Position numbers and translations under genes: made by a program. Shown piece by piece: positions 43,748 to 61,286 of a stretch of DNA of 64,000 nucleotides. Location: the NCBI GenBank assembly GCA_017305715.1, contig JAFKKG010000011.1:1-64000 (forward strand), given 5' to 3'. This DNA is from Hyphomicrobiales bacterium (lineage in GTDB: Bacteria; Pseudomonadota; Alphaproteobacteria; Rhizobiales; Xanthobacteraceae). Each line of letters starts with the position of its first letter. Within the stretch, counting starts at the first letter, position 1. Below the pieces are notes generated by a model. The model did not search any database and was not told where the DNA came from. It saw nothing but the letters and a program-made list of their open reading frames with translations.

Positions 43748-44500
43748 TTATGGGCGGGCGCATCGCATTGCCTCCGCCATGGTCAAAACCGGAATTTTCC
43801 GGCGGGCTGCCGCCTTGAGGGCATGATCGAGCAGGGCCGGCGAGCAGCCCCACGGACTGGGCTTTCCGGTCACGTCGTGGCCGTAGAAAATTAACCATCC
43901 ATTATTGGTTTCGGCCGCGTCGAACGCGCGCTCGATCCCGACACGGTCCATCTGGCGGTCGATCAGCGGCATGGCGCGGAGGAACTGCAAATCGACATCG
44001 CCGCTGTTGATGCCCGGCACGATGCTGCGGCAGGTCTGGAATTGATCCTTGAGCTGGTGCTTGCGGCCGAACGAACCGTAGCCGAAAGGATATGCGAACG
44101 TCTGGGTCTCGATCGAGGCGTCCAGTGCGCGGAAATACCGCCGATTGCGCATGATTTCATTGGCAAGCGATGCGACGCCGAGATCGCAGGCACGCTGGTG
44201 CGAGAACGTATGACAGCCGATCTCATGGCCGCGGCGATACAGCGAAAGCACGTCAGTGGCATCGCCGGCCGTCCAGTAGGGCGTCCCGACCCCGACCAGG
44301 CCTCCCGATACATAGAACGTGCCGCGCGCGCCATGCGCCTCGAGCAGTTCCGCGCCCGTTGTCACGGCGCTCTTTGGAAGGTCGTCGAAGGTAAAGCTGA
44401 CCATTGGCGTGGCATTGCGCATCCGGAACGGACCGGCGTGCAGGTGCATCGCCAGCCGATGGCTGACCTTCACCCTTGCCTCTGAGAACATCTCGTTCAT
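43748..44500 (-). CDS. NodB-type polysaccharide deacetylase
   Basis: A 250-residue carbohydrate esterase family 4 protein without signal peptide. Metal and base residues are Asp39/Asp40 in SFTFDDLPK and His97/His101 in GCHTFSH, followed by AYPFGYG. It should remove acetyl groups from amino sugars of the lipid-linked unit or polymer. Being cytoplasmic by sequence, it may act before export. Its start overlaps the methyltransferase stop by 4 bases (ATGA coupling). Upstream neighbour is the flippase, downstream is exoP after a 156-base gap. Confidence 0.9.
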   Translation of the reverse strand: MNEMFSEARVKVSHRLAMHLHAGPFRMRNATPMVSFTFDDLPKSAVTTGAELLEAHGARGTFYVSGGLVGVGTPYWTAGDATDVLSLYRRGHEIGCHTFSHQRACDLGVASLANEIMRNRRYFRALDASIETQTFAYPFGYGSFGRKHQLKDQFQTCRSIVPGINSGDVDLQFLRAMPLIDRQMDRVGIERAFDAAETNNGWLIFYGHDVTGKPSPWGCSPALLDHALKAAARRKIPVLTMAEAMRCARP

Positions 44501-50173: not shown

Positions 50174-51178
50174 ATGGAAACCGCTGACAACACGCCGAAG
50201 GCCTCCCGCGCATTGGCGGCGATCTCGCCGGCGCTCGATCCGTCCCGGATCGGGATCGTGGTCTGCATTCCCTGCTTCCGCCGGCCGCAGCATCTGCGGC
50301 AGACGCTGCAATCGCTCGCCGGCCAGCGCACCGGGCGCCGCTTTGCCGTGGTCGTGGTCGAGAACGATGCCGAGCGCAGCGAGAGCGTCCCGGTTGCCGC
50401 CGAGTTCCTGGCATCGGGAAAATTGCAGGGGCTGTGCGTGGTCGAACCGCAGCAGGGCAATTGCCACGCGATCAATGCCGCGTTCGAGACGGCATTGGAT
50501 ACGTTTCCGGCCGCGGCCAGTTTCCTGATGATCGACGATGATGAAATCGCCTCGCCCGACTGGCTGGAGCGGATGATCTGCGCGGCCGAGGCCACCGGCG
50601 CCGATATTGTCGGCGGGCCGGTGAAGCCTCACTTCGACGACGCGCGCAAGCGTGGGCTGCGCCGTCATCCGGCATTCGCGCCGGCCTACGCGGAGTCGGG
50701 CCCGGTGCGGGTTATCTATGGCTGCGGCAATTGCCTGATCCGGCGTCCGGTATTCGCGCGCGCGGGCACCCCGGCGTTCGACCTGCGTTTCAATTTCCTG
50801 GGGGGAGGCGATACCGATTTCTTCTACCGGTGTCTGCGCCTCGGCATGCGGTTTCACTGGGTAGCGGAGGCCACGATCAGCGAAACGGTGCCGCCGAGCC
50901 GGACCAAGCTGAGCTGGCTCATCATCCGGGGCCTGCGGATCGGCGCCATCAATTATCACGTCCAGCGCAAGGCGACGCCGACGGCCTGGCTGCGCGCCAG
51001 GCTGACGCTCAAATTGCTGGCGGCATTGCCGCTTTCGCTGGTCCACGCCACCCATGCCGCATTGACCGAACGCGAACGGACCATCGCGATGCACCCGATG
51101 ACGGTTGCGATCGGCAGCCTGCTGGCCGCGATCGGCATCGAACCGCAACCCTACAAAGCCTCGAAGATATCAGCGTGA
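50174..51178 (+). CDS. Family 2 glycosyltransferase
   Basis: A 334-residue GT-A fold enzyme. Nucleotide-sugar motifs are VVCIPCFRRPQHLRQTLQSL near the N-terminus and LMIDDDEIASPDWLERM (DxD type) mid-domain; FNFLGGGDTDFFYRC is the acceptor-side acidic motif. A hydrophobic C-terminal patch (TLKLLAALPLSLVHATHA) suggests membrane attachment. It should add a sugar to the lipid-linked intermediate. The ribosome site is weak. Its TGA overlaps the GTG of the following polymerase-like gene by 4 bases. Confidence 0.92.
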   Translation: METADNTPKASRALAAISPALDPSRIGIVVCIPCFRRPQHLRQTLQSLAGQRTGRRFAVVVVENDAERSESVPVAAEFLASGKLQGLCVVEPQQGNCHAINAAFETALDTFPAAASFLMIDDDEIASPDWLERMICAAEATGADIVGGPVKPHFDDARKRGLRRHPAFAPAYAESGPVRVIYGCGNCLIRRPVFARAGTPAFDLRFNFLGGGDTDFFYRCLRLGMRFHWVAEATISETVPPSRTKLSWLIIRGLRIGAINYHVQRKATPTAWLRARLTLKLLAALPLSLVHATHAALTERERTIAMHPMTVAIGSLLAAIGIEPQPYKASKISA

Positions 51179-52488
51179 GCCAGTACGCCATCACCTCGGA
51201 AGTCCACGCCGTCGTCGGCGAGATCCGGCGTCAGCAGGTGATCGATATCGTCCACGCCGTCACTTTCATCGGCGTCATCCTGCTGGCCTGGCTGTCACTG
51301 CACCCGTTCGAAGATTTGAGCAACATGCAGATCGGCGACGTCAGCACGGGCAACGAACTGCCGACCTATGCGATCTTTGGCGGCCTTGCGGTGCTGACCA
51401 CGGCCTTGACCATGCGCGACAACATGCGCGGGCTCGCGACATTGCTGACGCCGTCATTCGTGCTGTTCATCGGCTGGCTATGTGTCACCGTCCTGTTGTC
51501 GTTCGATCCGAGCACCTCGATCCGCCGCTTCAGCCTGACGGCCTGCGTGATCGCGGTCACCGCGGGGATGCCGCTGCTGGCGCGGTCGCAGCACGAGCTG
51601 CTGCGCTGGCTGAGCATTGCCGCCCTGGTACTACTGGCGGCGTGCTATCTCGGACTGCTGCTGGCGCCGCATCTGACCATCCATCTGGCGACCGACCCGC
51701 AGGAGCCCGGCCTTGCCGGAAACTGGCGCGGGTCGTTTGCCCACAAGAACGTCGCGGCGGCGATCATGGTGACGCTGCTGTTCTTCGGCATCGCTTTCAT
51801 TCGCTCGGGTAAGTGGATATCCGGCGTGGCGGTGATCGCCCTGTCGTCGCTGTTTCTGTTCTTTGCCGCGGGCAAGAGTTCGCTGGCGCTTTGCATTGCC
51901 GTGCTGGTGCTGACGTCCCTGACGTCGCTGATCCGCTCGTTTCCCGGCCGTGCCTTGCTGCTGCTGACGCCGCTATTGCTGTTGAACCTGTTCAGCGTCG
52001 GTACGGTCATAAGCGACAGCCTGGCGGCGATCGGAAAATTGTTGCCGCTGGATTCGAGCTTCACCGGCCGCACGGATATCTGGGCCTTTGCCCTGCAGTC
52101 GTTGCAGCCGAAATTGGCGACCGGCTATGGCTTCGCTGCGTTCTGGGGCAGCAGCGCGATCCAGGGGCTCCCCGAGGGCAAGGAATGGGCGGCTTTCGCT
52201 TCGCACAGCCACAATGGTTATCTCGATACGGCGCTCGGCACGGGCCTGCCCGGCCTCGCGCTGCTGATTGTTGTGCTCGTGATAAAGCCGCTGCGCGATT
52301 TCCAGAACGCGGACGAAGGCGGCAACAACGGGCCGCTGACGATGGCATTCCTGCGCGTCTGGCTGTTCGGCATTTATCTATCCTCGATGGAGACCTTCTT
52401 CCTCGACCGTGCCGATACCATCTGGATCACGTTCCTACTCGCGGTGTTCGGCCTGCACTATCTGGCGCGGTTTCGCGCAACAGCATGA
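51175..52488 (+). CDS. O-antigen ligase / Wzy-type polymerase
   Basis: A 437-residue inner-membrane protein with about ten to twelve spans and the Wzy_C-type periplasmic loop, seen as GNWRGSFAHKNVAAAIMVTL and FTGRTDIWAFALQSL followed by FASHSHNGYLDTALGTGLPG. This protein family includes O-antigen ligases and Wzy polymerases; with Wzx and Wzz nearby, polymerase is the better guess. The start is GTG 51175, overlapping the GT2 stop (GTGA). The frame remains open upstream through the GT2 gene in another phase, which is not real. Last gene of the rightward unit. Confidence 0.88.
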   Translation: MSQYAITSEVHAVVGEIRRQQVIDIVHAVTFIGVILLAWLSLHPFEDLSNMQIGDVSTGNELPTYAIFGGLAVLTTALTMRDNMRGLATLLTPSFVLFIGWLCVTVLLSFDPSTSIRRFSLTACVIAVTAGMPLLARSQHELLRWLSIAALVLLAACYLGLLLAPHLTIHLATDPQEPGLAGNWRGSFAHKNVAAAIMVTLLFFGIAFIRSGKWISGVAVIALSSLFLFFAAGKSSLALCIAVLVLTSLTSLIRSFPGRALLLLTPLLLLNLFSVGTVISDSLAAIGKLLPLDSSFTGRTDIWAFALQSLQPKLATGYGFAAFWGSSAIQGLPEGKEWAAFASHSHNGYLDTALGTGLPGLALLIVVLVIKPLRDFQNADEGGNNGPLTMAFLRVWLFGIYLSSMETFFLDRADTIWITFLLAVFGLHYLARFRATA

Positions 52489-53858: not shown

Positions 53859-54794
53859 ATGACAGGCCAGATCTTCACCAAATGGGACGAAACGCATTCC
53901 GAATTGTGGAGCCGTCAGCCAATCCGGCTCGAGCACGAGATGCACAAGTCACCGGCTTTCTCGATGGATGATCTCGCCAGACTGATCGAGGGTTATCCGC
54001 GCGAGCATTACAGCCTGGTGCAGACCGGCGCCCGCGGCTCCAAGAAGCTGTGGCGCGAAGGCGACATCGGCAATCTCAGCGGCGGCGAAGTGATCGAGGC
54101 GATCTCCCGCGGCGGGCTTTGGCTCAACATGCGCGACGTCGGTTCGGTCGACAGCCGCTATCGCAAGCTGGTCGACAAGATGTTCGAGGAAATCCACGCC
54201 AAGATGCCCAGCTTCGCCATTCCGAAGGGCCATCAGGAGAGCATCCTGATTTCCGCGCCGGATGCGCAGGTCTATTATCACGCCGACATGCCGGGCCAGA
54301 GCCTGGTCCAGATCGCCGGCCGCAAGCGGGTCTATGTCTATCCGAACACGGCGCCGTTCATCACGCCGGAGCATCTCGAGGACATCGCGCTGTTCAACGT
54401 CGAAGTCGATCTGCCCTACAAGGAATGGTACGACGACCACGCCAAGGTGCTCGACATCGGACCCGGCCAGATGCTCGGCTGGCAGATGAACGCTCCGCAC
54501 CGGGTCGAGAACCTCGACACGTTCAGCGTCTCGATGACGATTTCCTATACCAATGACGAGATTCGCCGCTCCGAGATCGTCCACCTCGCCAACGGCATGC
54601 TGCGGCATCGCTTCGGTTACACGCCGAAGAGCCGTAACCTTCGCGGGCCGGCCTTTTTCGCCAAGGCTGTCATGCAGAAGCTGCTGCGCGACGGCAAATG
54701 GGTCAAGCGCGAGCGCAGCGCCCGCCGTCCGATCGACTTCCGTCTCGACAAGGCCCAGCCCGGCAAGCTCGTCGATTTGCCGAAGGCGGCCTGA
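53859..54794 (+). CDS. Cupin-like (JmjC-fold) protein, possible Fe(II)/2-oxoglutarate oxygenase
   Basis: A 311-residue cytoplasmic protein. YYHADMPGQSL supplies His141 and Asp143, GRKRVYVYP a substrate-binding arginine region, and MNAPHRVEN supplies His214. This spacing, HxD then a histidine about 70 residues later, is the iron triad of cupin-like/JmjC oxygenases. AGGAG lies about 8 bases before the ATG. It precedes the GNAT/CelD gene by 17 bases. A hydroxylation of a sugar, lipid or protein side chain in polysaccharide assembly is possible; target unknown. Confidence 0.75.
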   Translation: MTGQIFTKWDETHSELWSRQPIRLEHEMHKSPAFSMDDLARLIEGYPREHYSLVQTGARGSKKLWREGDIGNLSGGEVIEAISRGGLWLNMRDVGSVDSRYRKLVDKMFEEIHAKMPSFAIPKGHQESILISAPDAQVYYHADMPGQSLVQIAGRKRVYVYPNTAPFITPEHLEDIALFNVEVDLPYKEWYDDHAKVLDIGPGQMLGWQMNAPHRVENLDTFSVSMTISYTNDEIRRSEIVHLANGMLRHRFGYTPKSRNLRGPAFFAKAVMQKLLRDGKWVKRERSARRPIDFRLDKAQPGKLVDLPKAA

Positions 54795-54811
54795 GCGGGA
54801 TTGTCATTGTC

Positions 54812-56002
54812 ATGACGGTGCTGGCGACAAATGCCGGGAAACTGGACGCGCGGGCAAAGACCCGCGCGGCCGGATACCGCATCGAACTGGTCGCCGACTG
54901 GAAACAGGCTGTGGCGCGCTGGAGCGATGTCAGCCCGTCGACGCCGTTCCAGCATCCGCAATGGTATGCGGCCTGGTACGACGCCTTCGCCGTCGCCGAT
55001 GGTGTCGAGCCCTTGATTGCCATCGTCACCGATGCCTCGACCGGCGAGCAGGCCGCCCTGCTGCCGCTGATCCGCCGCCGGCAGAGCAATATTTCGATCG
55101 TCGAATTCGCCGATCTCGATCTCACCGATTACAACGCCCCGATCCTGGGCCCCGCGGCGCCACGCGACGCCGGCGCGGCGCGCGCGTTGTGGCGCGATCT
55201 GCGATCCGCGCTGCGCCGGATGCAAGGCGGCGCCGACCTCATCCGGCTGCGCAAGGTCCCGCTTGATTGCGACGGCCGGCCCAATCCGCTGGCATTGCTC
55301 GGCGATGCCGGCTCGTGCGCGCTCAACGGCAATGTCGCCGTCACCGGCGAGGATTACGACGCTTGGCGCTACACGCTCGAAAAGACCGTGCGCAAGGAGC
55401 TGGAGCGCAGCTGGCGCGTTTTCACGCGCGACCCGGCCGCTTCGTTTCAGATCGTCACCGACAAGGCGGCGGCGCTGCGGATTCTCGCGACCACGGAGGT
55501 CCAGCAGGGCACGCGGATGCGGAGCCTCGGGCTCAATTTCATCCTCAATGACGAGACCTGCGCCACGTTCTACCGCAACCTGGTGCGCGACGGCGTCGGC
55601 AGCGGCTATGCTGTGGTGACGGCGCTCAGGGTCGGCGACGAAATCGTCGCGACGCTGCTGGGGATTCGCTGCGGCGCGCGCTACGTGATGATCCGCATCA
55701 GCAATGCCGGCGAGAAATGGTCGAACTGTTCGCCCGGCCGGCTGATCATCGAACGCACGATGGCGGCGCTGCACGGGGACGGCGTGCGGGAATTCGACTT
55801 TTCCGTCGGCAATTACGCCTACAAGCGCCGCTTCGGCGTCGCGTCCTTGCCGCTGGTCGATATCAGCGCCGCACTGGGTTGGCGCGGTCTGCCCCATGCC
55901 TTGCGCGACCGCGCCGCGCGCGAACTGCGCAACTATCCGAAGCTTTCGGCGCGCTTGAAGCGCGCGCTCGGCAAGCCGCCGTCGCGCGAAGAGGTCCACT
56001 GA
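54812..56002 (+). CDS. GNAT / CelD-BcsL-like acyltransferase
   Basis: A 396-residue protein of the Acetyltransf_6 (CelD, FemAB-like) group. Typical pieces are STPFQHPQWYAAWYDAF near the N-terminus, ALLPLIRRRQSNISIVEFAD, and in the catalytic half ATLLGIRCGARYVMIRISNA then WSNCSPGRLIIERTMAAL, EFDFSVGNYAYKRRFG. Members act in cellulose and other polysaccharide biosynthesis and in exosortase-linked systems. ATG 54812 chosen because it begins right after the cupin gene (17 bases). Same unit as the cupin-like protein and the methyltransferase. Confidence 0.88.
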   Translation: MTVLATNAGKLDARAKTRAAGYRIELVADWKQAVARWSDVSPSTPFQHPQWYAAWYDAFAVADGVEPLIAIVTDASTGEQAALLPLIRRRQSNISIVEFADLDLTDYNAPILGPAAPRDAGAARALWRDLRSALRRMQGGADLIRLRKVPLDCDGRPNPLALLGDAGSCALNGNVAVTGEDYDAWRYTLEKTVRKELERSWRVFTRDPAASFQIVTDKAAALRILATTEVQQGTRMRSLGLNFILNDETCATFYRNLVRDGVGSGYAVVTALRVGDEIVATLLGIRCGARYVMIRISNAGEKWSNCSPGRLIIERTMAALHGDGVREFDFSVGNYAYKRRFGVASLPLVDISAALGWRGLPHALRDRAARELRNYPKLSARLKRALGKPPSREEVH

Positions 56003-57307: not shown

Positions 57308-58609
57308 TCACGACGCGTCGCGCAGGTGAATGATTTCGATATTGCCGTTCTCGACCAGGATTTCGCTGGGCAATGGATGGCTTAGAAATCCGACGGGGCT
57401 TGCCGTCCTGCCGTAAGCCCCCGATTGCAGCACGGCGATAAGATCGCCTGCGGCAAGGTCCGGCATCTCGGCCTTCCGGGCCAGCGTATCCAGCGGCGTG
57501 CAGAGGGGACCGACGATCGTTGCCGGCGATCCCTCGCCCGCATTCATGCGAGCGGGCGCAAGAATCGGATAATCCCGCTTGATGACCTGACCGAGGTTGC
57601 CGGAGGCTGCAAGATGGTGATGCATGCCGCCGTCGGTGATCAGGAAGCGGATGCCGCGCGAGATCTTCGCAGCATTGATCCCGGCCACATAGATTCCGGC
57701 CGGACCGACCAGAAAGCGGCCGGGCTCCACCACGATGCGGGCGCCGGCAAGCCGCGGGGCGGACTTCAACCGCTGGCGAAGCAAGGCCAGGCCGCGCGAC
57801 AGCTTCGCCAGATCGAGTTCGCCATCGCCCGCGAAATAGGGAATGCCGAGCCCGCCGCCGAGGTCGATGGTCTTGAGCGGATGTGCGGCGATGTCAGCCA
57901 CGCGTTCGGCCACGTCGATGCCATGCCGCCATTGCGCAAGCAGCACCGCCTCATCGAGGATCTGCGTGCCGGCGAAAAGATGTATGCCACACAGATCCAG
58001 TCCGGGCGCGGACTGCACCTGGCCGACGACCTCGGCGATGGTTTCTTCGTCAAAGCCGAACGGCGCCGGCTTGCCGCCCATGCGCATGGCGCCGCCTTGC
58101 GCCGAGGCCACCGGATTGACTCGGATCGCGACCGGCACCGTGACGTCGAGGCGCGCGGCGATCGCCTTCAGCCTGTCGATCTCCTCAAAACTCTCGAGGT
58201 GAATTTCGCCGATGCCGCCGGCGACGCTCTCAAGTTCATGGGCGCTCTTGGCCGGTCCGGCGAACAGAATATCCTCAGGGCTGACACCGGCGGCTCGAGC
58301 GGCGCGGTATTCGCCGAGCGAGGCGATCTCGACGCCCGCGCCCTCGTCGCGGAGCAGGCGGATGATTGCCGCGGCAGGGTTGGCCTTGACCGAATAATGG
58401 ACCCTCGCAAAGCCTGACAGCGCCCCGGCAAGCGCACGGTAATTGCGGCGTATCACGCCGCCGTCATAGACAAACATCGGCGTGCCGTAGCGCGCCGCGA
58501 GCTCGCGGAGCGGGATGCCGCCGGCCAAAAGGTCCGCGCCGGCGACGCCGAACTGACGTGATGCCAGCGCGTTGGCGAAGCCGGATGGATCTGGCTCAGG
58601 CCGGTGCAT
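57308..58609 (-). CDS. PLP-dependent decarboxylase, exosortase-A-associated type
   Basis: A 433-residue fold-type III PLP enzyme related to diaminopimelate/ornithine decarboxylases. Lys75 in HYSVKANP binds PLP; DLGGGLGIPYF, EPGRFLVGPAG and GPLCTPLDTLAR (with the catalytic Cys) and YGRTASPVGFL complete the family order. This version resembles the decarboxylase found next to an AMP ligase in exosortase-A gene sets. Its start overlaps the ligase stop by 14 bases. It may decarboxylate an amino acid carried on the adjacent carrier protein, an inference. Confidence 0.85.
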   Translation of the reverse strand: MHRPEPDPSGFANALASRQFGVAGADLLAGGIPLRELAARYGTPMFVYDGGVIRRNYRALAGALSGFARVHYSVKANPAAAIIRLLRDEGAGVEIASLGEYRAARAAGVSPEDILFAGPAKSAHELESVAGGIGEIHLESFEEIDRLKAIAARLDVTVPVAIRVNPVASAQGGAMRMGGKPAPFGFDEETIAEVVGQVQSAPGLDLCGIHLFAGTQILDEAVLLAQWRHGIDVAERVADIAAHPLKTIDLGGGLGIPYFAGDGELDLAKLSRGLALLRQRLKSAPRLAGARIVVEPGRFLVGPAGIYVAGINAAKISRGIRFLITDGGMHHHLAASGNLGQVIKRDYPILAPARMNAGEGSPATIVGPLCTPLDTLARKAEMPDLAAGDLIAVLQSGAYGRTASPVGFLSHPLPSEILVENGNIEIIHLRDAS

Positions 58610-60158
58610 GCTTGCTTCGTTGCTGCGCCAGCAGTGGGTAATCGAGCTTGCCGTTCGGCGTCGTTGGCAGCGCATCGACCAGTTCGATCATGCGTGGCAT
58701 CATGAACGCCGGCAGTCGATGCGAAATGCTCTGCAGAATGTCGTGAACGCCGGCTTCCTTTTCCAGCGGCACGGCGACGGCATGAACCTTCTGCCCGGCC
58801 AGCGGGTCGGGCAGTCCAATGACCGCGACCTGCCGGAACGCCCCGGTCGCCATCAAGACCTCTTCGACTTCGGTCGGGCTGATCCGATAGCCTGACGACT
58901 TGATCATGGCGTCCGCCCGGCCGACAAAGCTGAAAAAGCCTTCCTCGTCCTCAACGACGAGGTCGCCGGAATAGCACACGATCTCGCCGCCTTGGGCTGC
59001 GCTCCTGAAGGGGTGCGGACGCAGCACCGTCGCGGTATCTTCGGGCCGGCTCCAGTATCCCAATGAGACGGTCGGCCCACGATGAACCAGAATTCCGGGC
59101 TCGCCCGGCCTGGCGCGCCGTCCGTCCGGTGTGACGGCGAACACCTCGCACTCGGGAATGGCCTTGCCGATCGACATCGGCCGCCGGTCGATTTCGTCGG
59201 GAGGCAAATAGGTCGAACGAAACGCTTCCGTCAGGCCGTACATCAGGAAGATGCGCGTGTCGGCCAGCATCTCGCGCAACCGTCGCACCGTCTCCGTCGG
59301 GACCGCGCCGCCCGAATTGGTGATGTAGCGCAGGGTCGGAAGCCTGGTGTGGCGAAGCAACGGCGACGCCTTCGTCAAAATCGCCCAAATCGTGGGGACG
59401 CCCGCAAGTCCGGTGATCGCATGATCGCTGATGGCGCGGACGATTTCGTCGCCGAGCTGAAACGAGAACAGGACCGTGACGGCGCGCTGCTGGATTGCGG
59501 TCAGCAATTGATTGAGGCCGTAGTCGAAGCTGAACGGCAGAAGGGACAGGATGCGGTCCTGGTCCGTGATCCCGAGGTAATTGACGACGATCCGCGAACC
59601 CGCAAGCAGATTGCGGTGGCTGAGCATGACGCCCTTTGGCAGACCGGTAGAGCCGGACGTATAGAGGATCGCCGCGAGATCTTCGCCGATCGCAAGATCG
59701 CGTCTGGCAGAAGCGGCTGCGGTCGCCGCGTCGCTTGTGATCGCCGCGTCGCCTGCGATCGCCTCGGCGCGCAGAATGGTCAAATGTTCGAGGCCCGCCA
59801 GCGCCTCGGATATCGCTTCGAACAGCGCGCTCGAACAGATCACCATCCGCGCGCCGCAATCTTCCACGATGTGGCGTATCTGGTGCGCGCGCAGAACACT
59901 GTTGACCGGCACGAAGACGCCCGCCGCCAGACTGACGCCGAGTATCGCCCAGCACTCCTCGATGCTCTTCGGGAGCACGATCGCGACACGATCACCAGGC
60001 GACAGGCCGTGGGCTGCAAGCGATGCGGCGCATCGCGTGGCGAGCTGCGAGAAGGCATGGTAACTGACCCACCGCGGGCCATCGATCAGCGCAACCCTGT
60101 CGGCATCACCCTCGCGCGGTGCGAGCAGGTGATGAACGAGATAGGGCGAATGGATCAC
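58596..60158 (-). CDS. AMP-forming acyl/aminoacyl ligase, exosortase-A-associated type
   Basis: A 520-residue ANL-superfamily enzyme. P-loop YTSGSTGLPKG at residues 166-176, YGLTEAFRS with the adenylate motif, SGD, GYRISPTEVEE and a C-terminal catalytic lysine in PNGKLDY are intact. It activates a carboxylate as adenylate and transfers it to a thiol, here most likely the phosphopantetheine arm of the adjacent carrier protein. GTG start overlaps the carrier-protein stop by 4 bases (GTGA). Exosortase-A-associated ligases form a distinct subgroup that this matches by partner genes and pattern. Confidence 0.85.
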   Translation of the reverse strand: MIHSPYLVHHLLAPREGDADRVALIDGPRWVSYHAFSQLATRCAASLAAHGLSPGDRVAIVLPKSIEECWAILGVSLAAGVFVPVNSVLRAHQIRHIVEDCGARMVICSSALFEAISEALAGLEHLTILRAEAIAGDAAITSDAATAAASARRDLAIGEDLAAILYTSGSTGLPKGVMLSHRNLLAGSRIVVNYLGITDQDRILSLLPFSFDYGLNQLLTAIQQRAVTVLFSFQLGDEIVRAISDHAITGLAGVPTIWAILTKASPLLRHTRLPTLRYITNSGGAVPTETVRRLREMLADTRIFLMYGLTEAFRSTYLPPDEIDRRPMSIGKAIPECEVFAVTPDGRRARPGEPGILVHRGPTVSLGYWSRPEDTATVLRPHPFRSAAQGGEIVCYSGDLVVEDEEGFFSFVGRADAMIKSSGYRISPTEVEEVLMATGAFRQVAVIGLPDPLAGQKVHAVAVPLEKEAGVHDILQSISHRLPAFMMPRMIELVDALPTTPNGKLDYPLLAQQRSKHAPA

Positions 60159-60430
60159 AGTTTGCGCTCGACGAATTCTGCGAGCTTGCCTGCCGTTGCG
60201 AGATTGCCGGCATCGAAATCCTCGTCTTCGAGCGTGATGCCGAATTCTTCGCTAAGGAACGTCATCAGCTCCAGAAATCCCAGGGAATCGATCGCCCCGC
60301 TGTGAAGCAGGGGAGTTGTCGCCTCGACCTCCGCGAGTGCCGGGAACCGGTTCCGCAGATAGCCGCGGATGGTTCGCAAAATGTCGGTCTTCTCCAGGCC
60401 CGCGGCGCTGTTGTCCACGTCAGACTCCAT
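60155..60430 (-). CDS. Acyl carrier protein
   Basis: A 91-residue four-helix carrier protein. The phosphopantetheine site is Ser49 in GAIDSLGFLELM, close to the DSL consensus, followed by FGITLEDEDFDA. Acidic overall, as usual. The ATG at 60430 (MESDVDN) is preferred; the frame extends further upstream but without likeness to a carrier protein. It sits between a GNAT gene (19 bases upstream) and the ligase (4-base overlap), forming a ligase-carrier unit in the manner of the DltA/DltC pair. Confidence 0.85.
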   Translation of the reverse strand: MESDVDNSAAGLEKTDILRTIRGYLRNRFPALAEVEATTPLLHSGAIDSLGFLELMTFLSEEFGITLEDEDFDAGNLATAGKLAEFVERKL

Positions 60431-60449
60431 TGATTCAGGGCCTTGGAGT

Positions 60450-61286
60450 CTATCCGAGAAAAACCAGTTCGGAGTAGGTGTGGTCGATCCCGCTTCGATC
60501 TGTCGCGCCTTTGACATAGGTTGGCGCGGACCATCGCGAGATGCTGCTGCGAATTGTCGCATCTGCGCGATTGGCGTCCATCTGCAGGAAGAAGAGCCGG
60601 TTCCGGAGCAGGAACCGCGAAATGACCGCCAGGTGATCGACGACCAGCCGCTTGCTGCTGGTCAGGATGATGCGAACGCCGGGAAGGCCCCGGCGCCTCA
60701 TTCTGGAAAAGATCAGCGGATGCTGATCTGCGCCGTTGCGCAACACGCCCACGAGGCATCCGAGCCTCGCATGATGGTCGAGCGTGGCGCGGGTAGCATC
60801 CGCCAAACCTGCCTCGTCGGGGGAAATGATCCGCGCCTGCGTGCGTGCCCGCAGCGCCGTCCAGGGCAGCGGAAACACCTGAAATCCCTCATTCAGAATT
60901 TCGAACCCCAGACGTTGATTGATCTTTTGCACGGTCGAACTCGGCGTCAGGTCGGTGAAGACGCTCGCCTCCCGCGCGACGACCTTTTGCAACATGCGCG
61001 CGGCCAGCCAGCGATGCGGTTCATCGACGTACCATGCCGCCAGATTGACGACGTCTCGTGTGCCGCTTGGTCCCGTTTTCCGGCCTGGAATGGTCAGGAC
61101 GATGCCGACGTCGTCGTGACCGACAGCCATCAAAAATCCGATCGGCTCGGCGTCGCGCCGGCTTGGAGAGGACAGGATTTTCCGGAGGGCATTGGCCCAG
61201 AACGATTCCGTTTTCTCCGGAAAGCCGCGCTTCAGGACGGCGAGGGCCTCGGCCGAATTGCAATCATCGATCGCGCGTAGTTTCAT
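60450..61286 (-). CDS. GNAT-fold acyltransferase
   Basis: A 278-residue protein with GNAT features: an N-terminal acceptor half (MKLRAIDDCNSAEALAVLKR), a cofactor loop region around AAWYVDEPHRWLAARMLQKV and NQRLGFEILNEGFQVF, typical of N-acetyltransferases. The start at 61286 (ATG, weak ribosome site) is preferred; the longer frame from 61328 starts with TTG. First gene of the leftward GNAT-carrier-ligase-decarboxylase unit. It could transfer the group carried by the ACP onto an amino sugar. Not characterised. Confidence 0.7.
   Translation of the reverse strand: MKLRAIDDCNSAEALAVLKRGFPEKTESFWANALRKILSSPSRRDAEPIGFLMAVGHDDVGIVLTIPGRKTGPSGTRDVVNLAAWYVDEPHRWLAARMLQKVVAREASVFTDLTPSSTVQKINQRLGFEILNEGFQVFPLPWTALRARTQARIISPDEAGLADATRATLDHHARLGCLVGVLRNGADQHPLIFSRMRRRGLPGVRIILTSSKRLVVDHLAVISRFLLRNRLFFLQMDANRADATIRSSISRWSAPTYVKGATDRSGIDHTYSELVFLG

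Follow-up and report, generated by a model that had tools for sequence, protein, structure and literature searches.

A carrier-protein module related to the exosortase A-associated ligase/decarboxylase pair in a polysaccharide locus of an exosortase-free alphaproteobacterium

The Burkholderia lipopeptide AFC-BC11 is made with a stand-alone VinN-type ligase (AfcQ), a single carrier (AfcK) and a pyridoxal phosphate (PLP) decarboxylase (AfcP). According to PMC12186527, the substrate of AfcQ is L-Asp and not beta-alanine, and AfcP decarboxylates Asp while it is on AfcK; Arg311 of AfcQ, which corresponds to VinN Arg331, was proposed from a docked model to hold the alpha-carboxylate, and most likely points the side-chain carboxylate at the catalytic lysine. 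VinN, VinL and VinO of the vicenistatin pathway go through the same sequence of steps with 3-methylaspartate (PMC11284099). In butirosin biosynthesis (BtrI, BtrJ and BtrK), BtrK is named in the Protein Data Bank (PDB) as L-glutamyl-[BtrI acyl-carrier protein] decarboxylase. The ligase and decarboxylase of TIGR03098 and TIGR03099 accompany exosortase A; NCBIfam types both models as 'hypothetical equivalog', and no paper tying the pair to a substrate was found in the open-licence literature. For the Caulobacter holdfast, HfsK was put forward as an enzyme that acylates the amines laid bare by HfsH (PMC5362036). Here we analyse a four-gene module, encoding a GNAT-fold protein, a carrier protein, an ANL ligase and a PLP decarboxylase, within a 64,000-nucleotide stretch (the window) of a Hyphomicrobiales bacterium of the Xanthobacteraceae (GCA_017305715.1, contig JAFKKG010000011.1, positions 1 to 64,000). 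An earlier note, made from the sequence alone, had singled it out.

The four genes are tightly packed on the minus strand, with a gap of 19 bases between the GNAT and carrier genes and overlaps of 4 bases (carrier/ligase) and 14 bases (ligase/decarboxylase), an arrangement given in the earlier note and recovered when the coordinates were re-derived. The reading frames are intact, with a GC content at third codon positions (GC3) of 0.74-0.77, and the source genome of 7.45 Mb is listed as 100% complete. The module shares with the exosortase A-associated pair the same adjacent enzymes and active-site residues, and differs from it in forming a separate branch, scoring under the cut-offs, having its own carrier in the operon and a tandem-GNAT protein, and residing in an exosortase-free genome. 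Of the solved sequences, BtrK of butirosin biosynthesis is nearest to the decarboxylase. BtrJ, unlike the module ligase, is an ATP-grasp enzyme of another ligase superfamily, and the butirosin acceptor is an aminoglycoside amine, also unlike the module. Vicenistatin biosynthesis resembles the module in adenylation, loading and decarboxylation on a stand-alone carrier; it differs in the use of 3-methylaspartate and in the fate of the product, which a polyketide synthase receives by way of VinM and VinK (PMC11284099). The likeness to AfcQ/AfcK/AfcP, set by description and not by direct sequence comparison, extends to the arginine proposed for the alpha-carboxylate, whereas PMC12186527 describes a 25-gene lipopeptide cluster with an iterative peptide and a KAS III-like acyltransferase. 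The window resembles the holdfast system in combining a deacetylase with a tandem-GNAT acyltransferase, next to HfsH- and HfsF-like genes; in the part of PMC5362036 at hand, the acyl donor of Caulobacter is unidentified and no ligase/carrier/decarboxylase module is described.

Sequence and model searches show the protein families, the active-site residues, the recurrence of the gene set and the lack of an exosortase; from there we infer a substrate, a reaction order and an acceptor. The ligase would activate an acidic alpha-amino acid, most likely L-Asp but possibly L-Glu, by adenylating its side-chain carboxylate, and would charge the adjacent carrier protein with it. On the carrier, the alpha-carboxylate would be stripped by the PLP enzyme, giving a beta-alanyl- (or gamma-aminobutyryl-, GABA-) S-carrier, and the tandem-GNAT protein would pass the beta-alanyl or GABA residue to an amine. 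In the window, as in several relatives, the most likely site of this amine would be an amino sugar in the surface polysaccharide of the neighbouring holdfast-like locus, where the HfsH-like deacetylase would free it. Taken as a whole, with a polysaccharide amine as the favoured acceptor, this explanation appears moderately likely to be right.

The decarboxylase had TIGR03099 as its best NCBIfam model, at 418.8 bits, under the cut-off of 478.45. Its closest solved sequences were those of BtrK (7ru7 and 2j66; 281 bits, E 2e-82), and the next solved match, a diaminopimelate decarboxylase (E 5e-52), scored 100 bits below BtrK. The window enzyme and BtrK have DGGMHHH and GPLCTP in common, while the diaminopimelate enzyme has DAGMND and GPICE, so that both overall similarity and the GPLCTP and HHH motifs place the window protein with BtrK. 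Among 90 aligned decarboxylases, C370, T371, P372, L373 and D374 were present in every sequence and the three histidines of the HHH motif in 86, 88 and 79 of them; M329 was found in merely 32, with leucine in the other 58. Because these motifs are shared with BtrK, which acts on a glutamyl-carrier, a carrier-bound amino acid is predicted as the substrate of the window enzyme.

TIGR03098 was likewise the best NCBIfam model for the ligase (574.8 bits, cut-off 592.35). The resemblance to the exosortase A pair pointed out in the earlier note was thus borne out by the model search, the two enzymes not falling in unrelated families, although both remain under the cut-offs. Among solved stand-alone enzymes, VinN (3wvn, 193.9 bits) was the best match to the ligase, and overall only a multi-domain gramicidin synthase scored higher. 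VinN was also the top match, aligned without gaps, of the 91-residue specificity segment around the A5 motif. Here, R314 aligns to chain residue Arg347 of VinN, the neighbour of Lys346, giving the window ligase a VinN-type arginine after the A5 motif if the inferred tag offset is correct. D212, as the aspartate of the amino-acid-binding motif, and R314 were kept in 85/85 aligned TIGR03098-type ligases (75 from named-genome loci, the window, the six family loci L016-L021 and the plasmid loci L111-L113, in our own numbering) and in 0/7 of the next best ligases of the source genome; the counterpart of D212 in solved enzymes was read from the gramicidin synthase alignment, not from that of VinN. 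Five loci with no ligase over 400 bits (L029, L070, L082, L087 and L088) were excluded from the 85. The likeness to BtrK together with the VinN-type arginine makes side-chain activation, carrier loading and decarboxylation to a beta-alanyl- or GABA-carrier the most likely course, Asp (or Glu) being the probable amino acid. The chain of adenylation, loading and possible decarboxylation suggested in the earlier note can be sharpened to a likely order of side-chain adenylation, loading, decarboxylation on the carrier and transfer, in line with VinN/VinL/VinO and AfcQ/AfcK/AfcP.

Several points weigh against this assignment. Equating chain Arg347 with VinN Arg331 presupposes a 16-residue tag. The seven control ligases resemble acyl-CoA ligases, not other amino-acid-activating enzymes, and consequently provide no test against the latter. 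A Foldseek search with the ligase model was headed by MatB-type ligases, with VinN absent among the 50 matches listed. Moreover, the evidence does not separate Asp from Glu as the substrate.

The carrier protein belongs to PF00550 (E 1.4e-6), its nearest NCBIfam model being AmcB (44.3 bits against a cut-off of 80), and Ser49 was unchanged in 5/5 aligned sequences. The GNAT protein retrieved no Pfam or NCBIfam match. Its AlphaFold model (mean predicted local distance difference test score 88.5) was matched over its full length by GNAT acetyltransferases in a Foldseek search of the PDB (best E 3.9e-9, template modelling score 0.58), which assigns the predicted model to the GNAT fold. Eis structures were among the matches, and these we take to hold two GNAT units. 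The tandem-GNAT gene lies ahead of the carrier gene in most copies, and its product is the simplest candidate and the probable transferase of the carrier-bound amino acid.

The scan of named genomes retained the best 80 of 560 confirmed loci. In a decarboxylase tree of 90 rows, with bootstrap not fully settled and a root for drawing only, the window fell among 18 rows that form a branch with 100/100 support and include alphaproteobacteria, Nitrospira, Planctomycetes and Acidobacteria. The other 72 rows hold the exosortase A-associated proteobacteria; within them, one cluster (97/90) unites actinobacteria, Melainabacteria, S. meliloti, the Burkholderia locus L111 and two genomes from the family of the window. 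Adding L149 and L150 by similarity (58-61% identity) brings the window's branch to 20 loci. All 20 have the ligase (one partial, one split over frames), and 19 have the carrier gene, with carrier, ligase and decarboxylase in that order in 19. A GNAT gene was detected in 16, lying upstream of the carrier gene in 13 (one in pieces) and downstream of the decarboxylase gene in L027, L028 and L033. L029 is a 3.7-kb contig that could not show carrier or GNAT; in L025, L030 and L032 no GNAT gene was found nearby, which weighs against the explanation above. The gene set recurs in distant genomes and is thus not a chance arrangement; the reading as a thiotemplate-like module, given in the earlier note, is supported.

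The source genome contains no match to the exosortase models TIGR02602 and PF09721, PEP-CTERM proteins and regulators not having been searched for. The absence of an exosortase noted earlier for the window thus extends to the whole genome, and an exosortase just outside the window is rejected. In the window's family, TIGR03099 matches (E <= 1e-90) were detected in 7/198 genomes, with an exosortase match in 0/7. Of 385 genomes of its class, 15 gave a decarboxylase match at E <= 1e-90 and 51 an exosortase match at E <= 0.001; 11 gave both, and four (G000, G811, G760 and G834) the decarboxylase alone. Exosortases accompanied 9/10 of the decarboxylases over the cut-off versus 2/5 of those below it, so the main branch is truly linked to exosortase, and proteins of the window's kind only weakly. 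Grouping 46 genomes, with L093 left out, 40 of the 80 named-genome loci not included and the genomes or records of L148-L150 outside the counts, we found an exosortase in 0/12 alphaproteobacterial genomes of the window's branch, in 5/5 branch genomes from other phyla (presence in the genome, not nearness to the module) and in 20/22 proteobacterial genomes of the main branch. Actinobacterial and Melainabacteria genomes had one over the cut-off in 0/5 cases, with one weak match in Saccharothrix; G040 and G150 had none (0/2), nor did L111-L113 (0/3), for which the plasmid record alone was searched. In an exosortase-type ligase/decarboxylase locus of Aromatoleum (L049:15194-16837), a DltB-like protein was observed (TIGR04091, 178.2 bits, cut-off 375).

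The polysaccharide genes reported previously around the module were confirmed among the scanned neighbours, which include Wzx-like, Wzy_C, Wzz/ExoP-like and glycosyltransferase genes, plus a deacetylase gene (Table 1). The deacetylase matched NF050820 at 187.2 bits (cut-off 400), and the window also encodes an HfsF-like flippase whose score, like that of the HfsH match, is well under its cut-off; judged from these matches, the locus appears to be holdfast-like. The Wzy-like protein at 50731-52488 weakly matches TIGR03097 (35.3 bits, cut-off 188.1), the model for a putative O-glycosylation ligase that belongs to the exosortase A system.

Table 1. Module genes and candidate members in the window.
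Feature	Coordinates	Strand	Basis
GNAT-fold acyltransferase	60450..61286	-	AlphaFold model and Foldseek; homologue in 16/20 branch loci
Acyl/aminoacyl carrier protein, DSL phosphopantetheine serine Ser49	60155..60430	-	PF00550
VinN-like ANL adenylation ligase, TIGR03098-like; D212, R314, K504	58596..60158	-	
BtrK-like PLP decarboxylase, TIGR03099-like, predicted to act on carrier-bound amino acid	57308..58609	-	
CelD/FemAB-like acyltransferase, possible alternative transferase, candidate member	54698..56002	+	PF13480
Cupin-like protein, possible hydroxylase, candidate member	53859..54794	+	Weak PF13621, 19.2 bits (gathering score 27.4)
HfsH-like polysaccharide deacetylase, could expose amine acceptor, candidate	43748..44500	-	PF01522

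In L020, a CelD-like gene and a cupin homologue both adjoin the module, as they lie near that of the window. In the Planctomycetaceae locus L030, the carrier gene is preceded by a run of three genes: an Acetyltransf_6/FemAB-like one, of the same Pfam family as the window's CelD-like gene, one without assignment and one of Cupin_8 type. Polysaccharide loci with these genes were also found on plasmids of Shinella (two), Rhizobium, Sinorhizobium and Aureimonas, and 4/5 of the plasmid stretches read contain a deacetylase; the Shinella and Rhizobium copies belong to the window's branch, and those of Sinorhizobium and Aureimonas are of main-branch type. Overall, polysaccharide-type neighbours were present in 8/20 branch loci (the window, L020, L027, L032, L033, L113, L149 and L150), while L028, L029 and L030, scanned in part, were assigned to neither group; neighbours were hand-picked, so these counts cover the scanned genes and not every gene. 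The GNAT, ligase and decarboxylase genes of L016 and L017 have very long open frames next to them, together with PrtD/HlyD type I secretion genes, for which the scan covered L016 alone; neither genome gave an exosortase match.

Other contexts argue against a polysaccharide acceptor. No polysaccharide gene was detected among the scanned neighbours in 9/20 branch loci (L018, L019, L021, L023, L024, L025, L026, L031 and L034). The module lies between crotonyl-CoA carboxylase/reductase (ccr) and methylmalonyl-CoA-mutase-family genes in L018 and adjoins a gene of the latter family in L019, and the Rhizobium/Agrobacterium copies are beside ADH, TGT or QueA genes. The HfsH-like deacetylase was found in 7/12 genomes with the module and in 7/10 same-genus genomes without the decarboxylase (1/6 in other genomes of the window's family), so it does not track the module. 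The CelD-like gene was present in 7/10 same-genus genomes where the decarboxylase was not found. Both genes were rejected as module markers. Given these contexts and the failure of both genes to track the module, we regard the surface polysaccharide, still the favoured acceptor, as an evenly balanced call, while the carrier chemistry itself is considered quite likely. The polysaccharide acceptor proposed in the earlier note has matching neighbours in only part of the branch.

With the same carrier chemistry, the GNAT protein could instead acylate a soluble amine or a lipid, yielding a diffusible compound or an aminolipid, the polysaccharide neighbours being incidental. The nine copies without such neighbours would fit this, as would the resemblance of the GNAT model to Eis, whose family acts on small amines, and the related ligase and decarboxylase genes in actinobacterial genomes without an exosortase over the cut-off. 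However, glycosyltransferase, deacetylase and often flippase genes adjoin the module repeatedly in separate genomes, and no exporter or regulator is common to the copies among the scanned neighbours, and we consider a small-molecule or lipid acceptor rather unlikely, if worth keeping in mind.

A different view would assign the two enzymes to distinct pathways: the ligase would form acyl-CoA and the decarboxylase would act on a free amino acid of the diaminopimelate kind, the genes being neighbours by chance. TIGR03098 does bear the name 'acyl-CoA ligase', Foldseek finds MatB and feruloyl-CoA ligases similar to the ligase model, and the lysA model also matches the decarboxylase, at 265.9 bits. 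Yet D212 and R314 are missing from the seven other ligases of the genome, the carrier gene overlaps the ligase gene, BtrK far outscores the diaminopimelate decarboxylases and the gene set recurs across phyla, which leaves chance neighbourhood improbable. Even less credible, and disfavoured here, is a degraded exosortase A locus that has lost its exosortase: the homology to the exosortase A pair and the exosortases in 5/5 branch genomes of other phyla are consistent with it, but the branch is separated with 100/100 support from the exosortase-associated rows, the window's frames are intact (GC3 0.74-0.77), carrier and GNAT genes are retained, and 12/12 alphaproteobacterial branch genomes tested lack an exosortase.

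If Asp or Glu is indeed loaded, decarboxylated on the carrier and transferred by the GNAT protein, what is new is the combination of known chemistry with a tandem-GNAT protein in exosortase-free genomes, plus a predicted role for the exosortase A pair. The undescribed system envisaged in the earlier note therefore stands for the combination and not for the carrier chemistry, which is already described in other pathways. Since the same core enzymes sit unexplained beside exosortase A in many bacteria, solving the module would help to explain both. Tentatively, and with more doubt than confidence, we suggest that all TIGR03098/TIGR03099 pairs, whether they lie in exosortase A loci or in polysaccharide loci free of exosortase, might make carrier-bound beta-alanyl or GABA groups for amino sugars of surface polysaccharides through exchangeable acyltransferases (tandem-GNAT, FemAB/CelD-like, perhaps MBOAT), in parallel to the D-alanylation of teichoic acids; in exosortase A systems, the free amine so installed might act on the sorted protein as nucleophile or hold it as anchor. 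If the chemistry proposed for the module is right, it would identify a substituent with positive charge on the surface polymers of bacteria and supply a candidate amine for the exosortase reaction. D212, R314 and the BtrK-type motifs make the substrate prediction concrete and cheaply testable.

A Burkholderia cenocepacia locus (L111) contains a ligase, a decarboxylase and a weak carrier match. Counted from the first start, the arginine of this ligase falls at 324 and the lysine at 515, where afc would have 311 and 503, and so the locus is not claimed as afc. In another family, the decarboxylase was detected in 121/294 genomes; neither these nor the plasmid collection settled the identity of afc. 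On pSymB of Sinorhizobium meliloti ml45 (L112:16208-16511), a likely carrier gene, unannotated and spread over two frames, lies behind the decarboxylase gene, as judged from a search in pieces only. In Rhizobium sp. CC-CFT758 (L149:7181-8972), the carrier runs over two frames and the ligase over three, unlike the Shinella copy.

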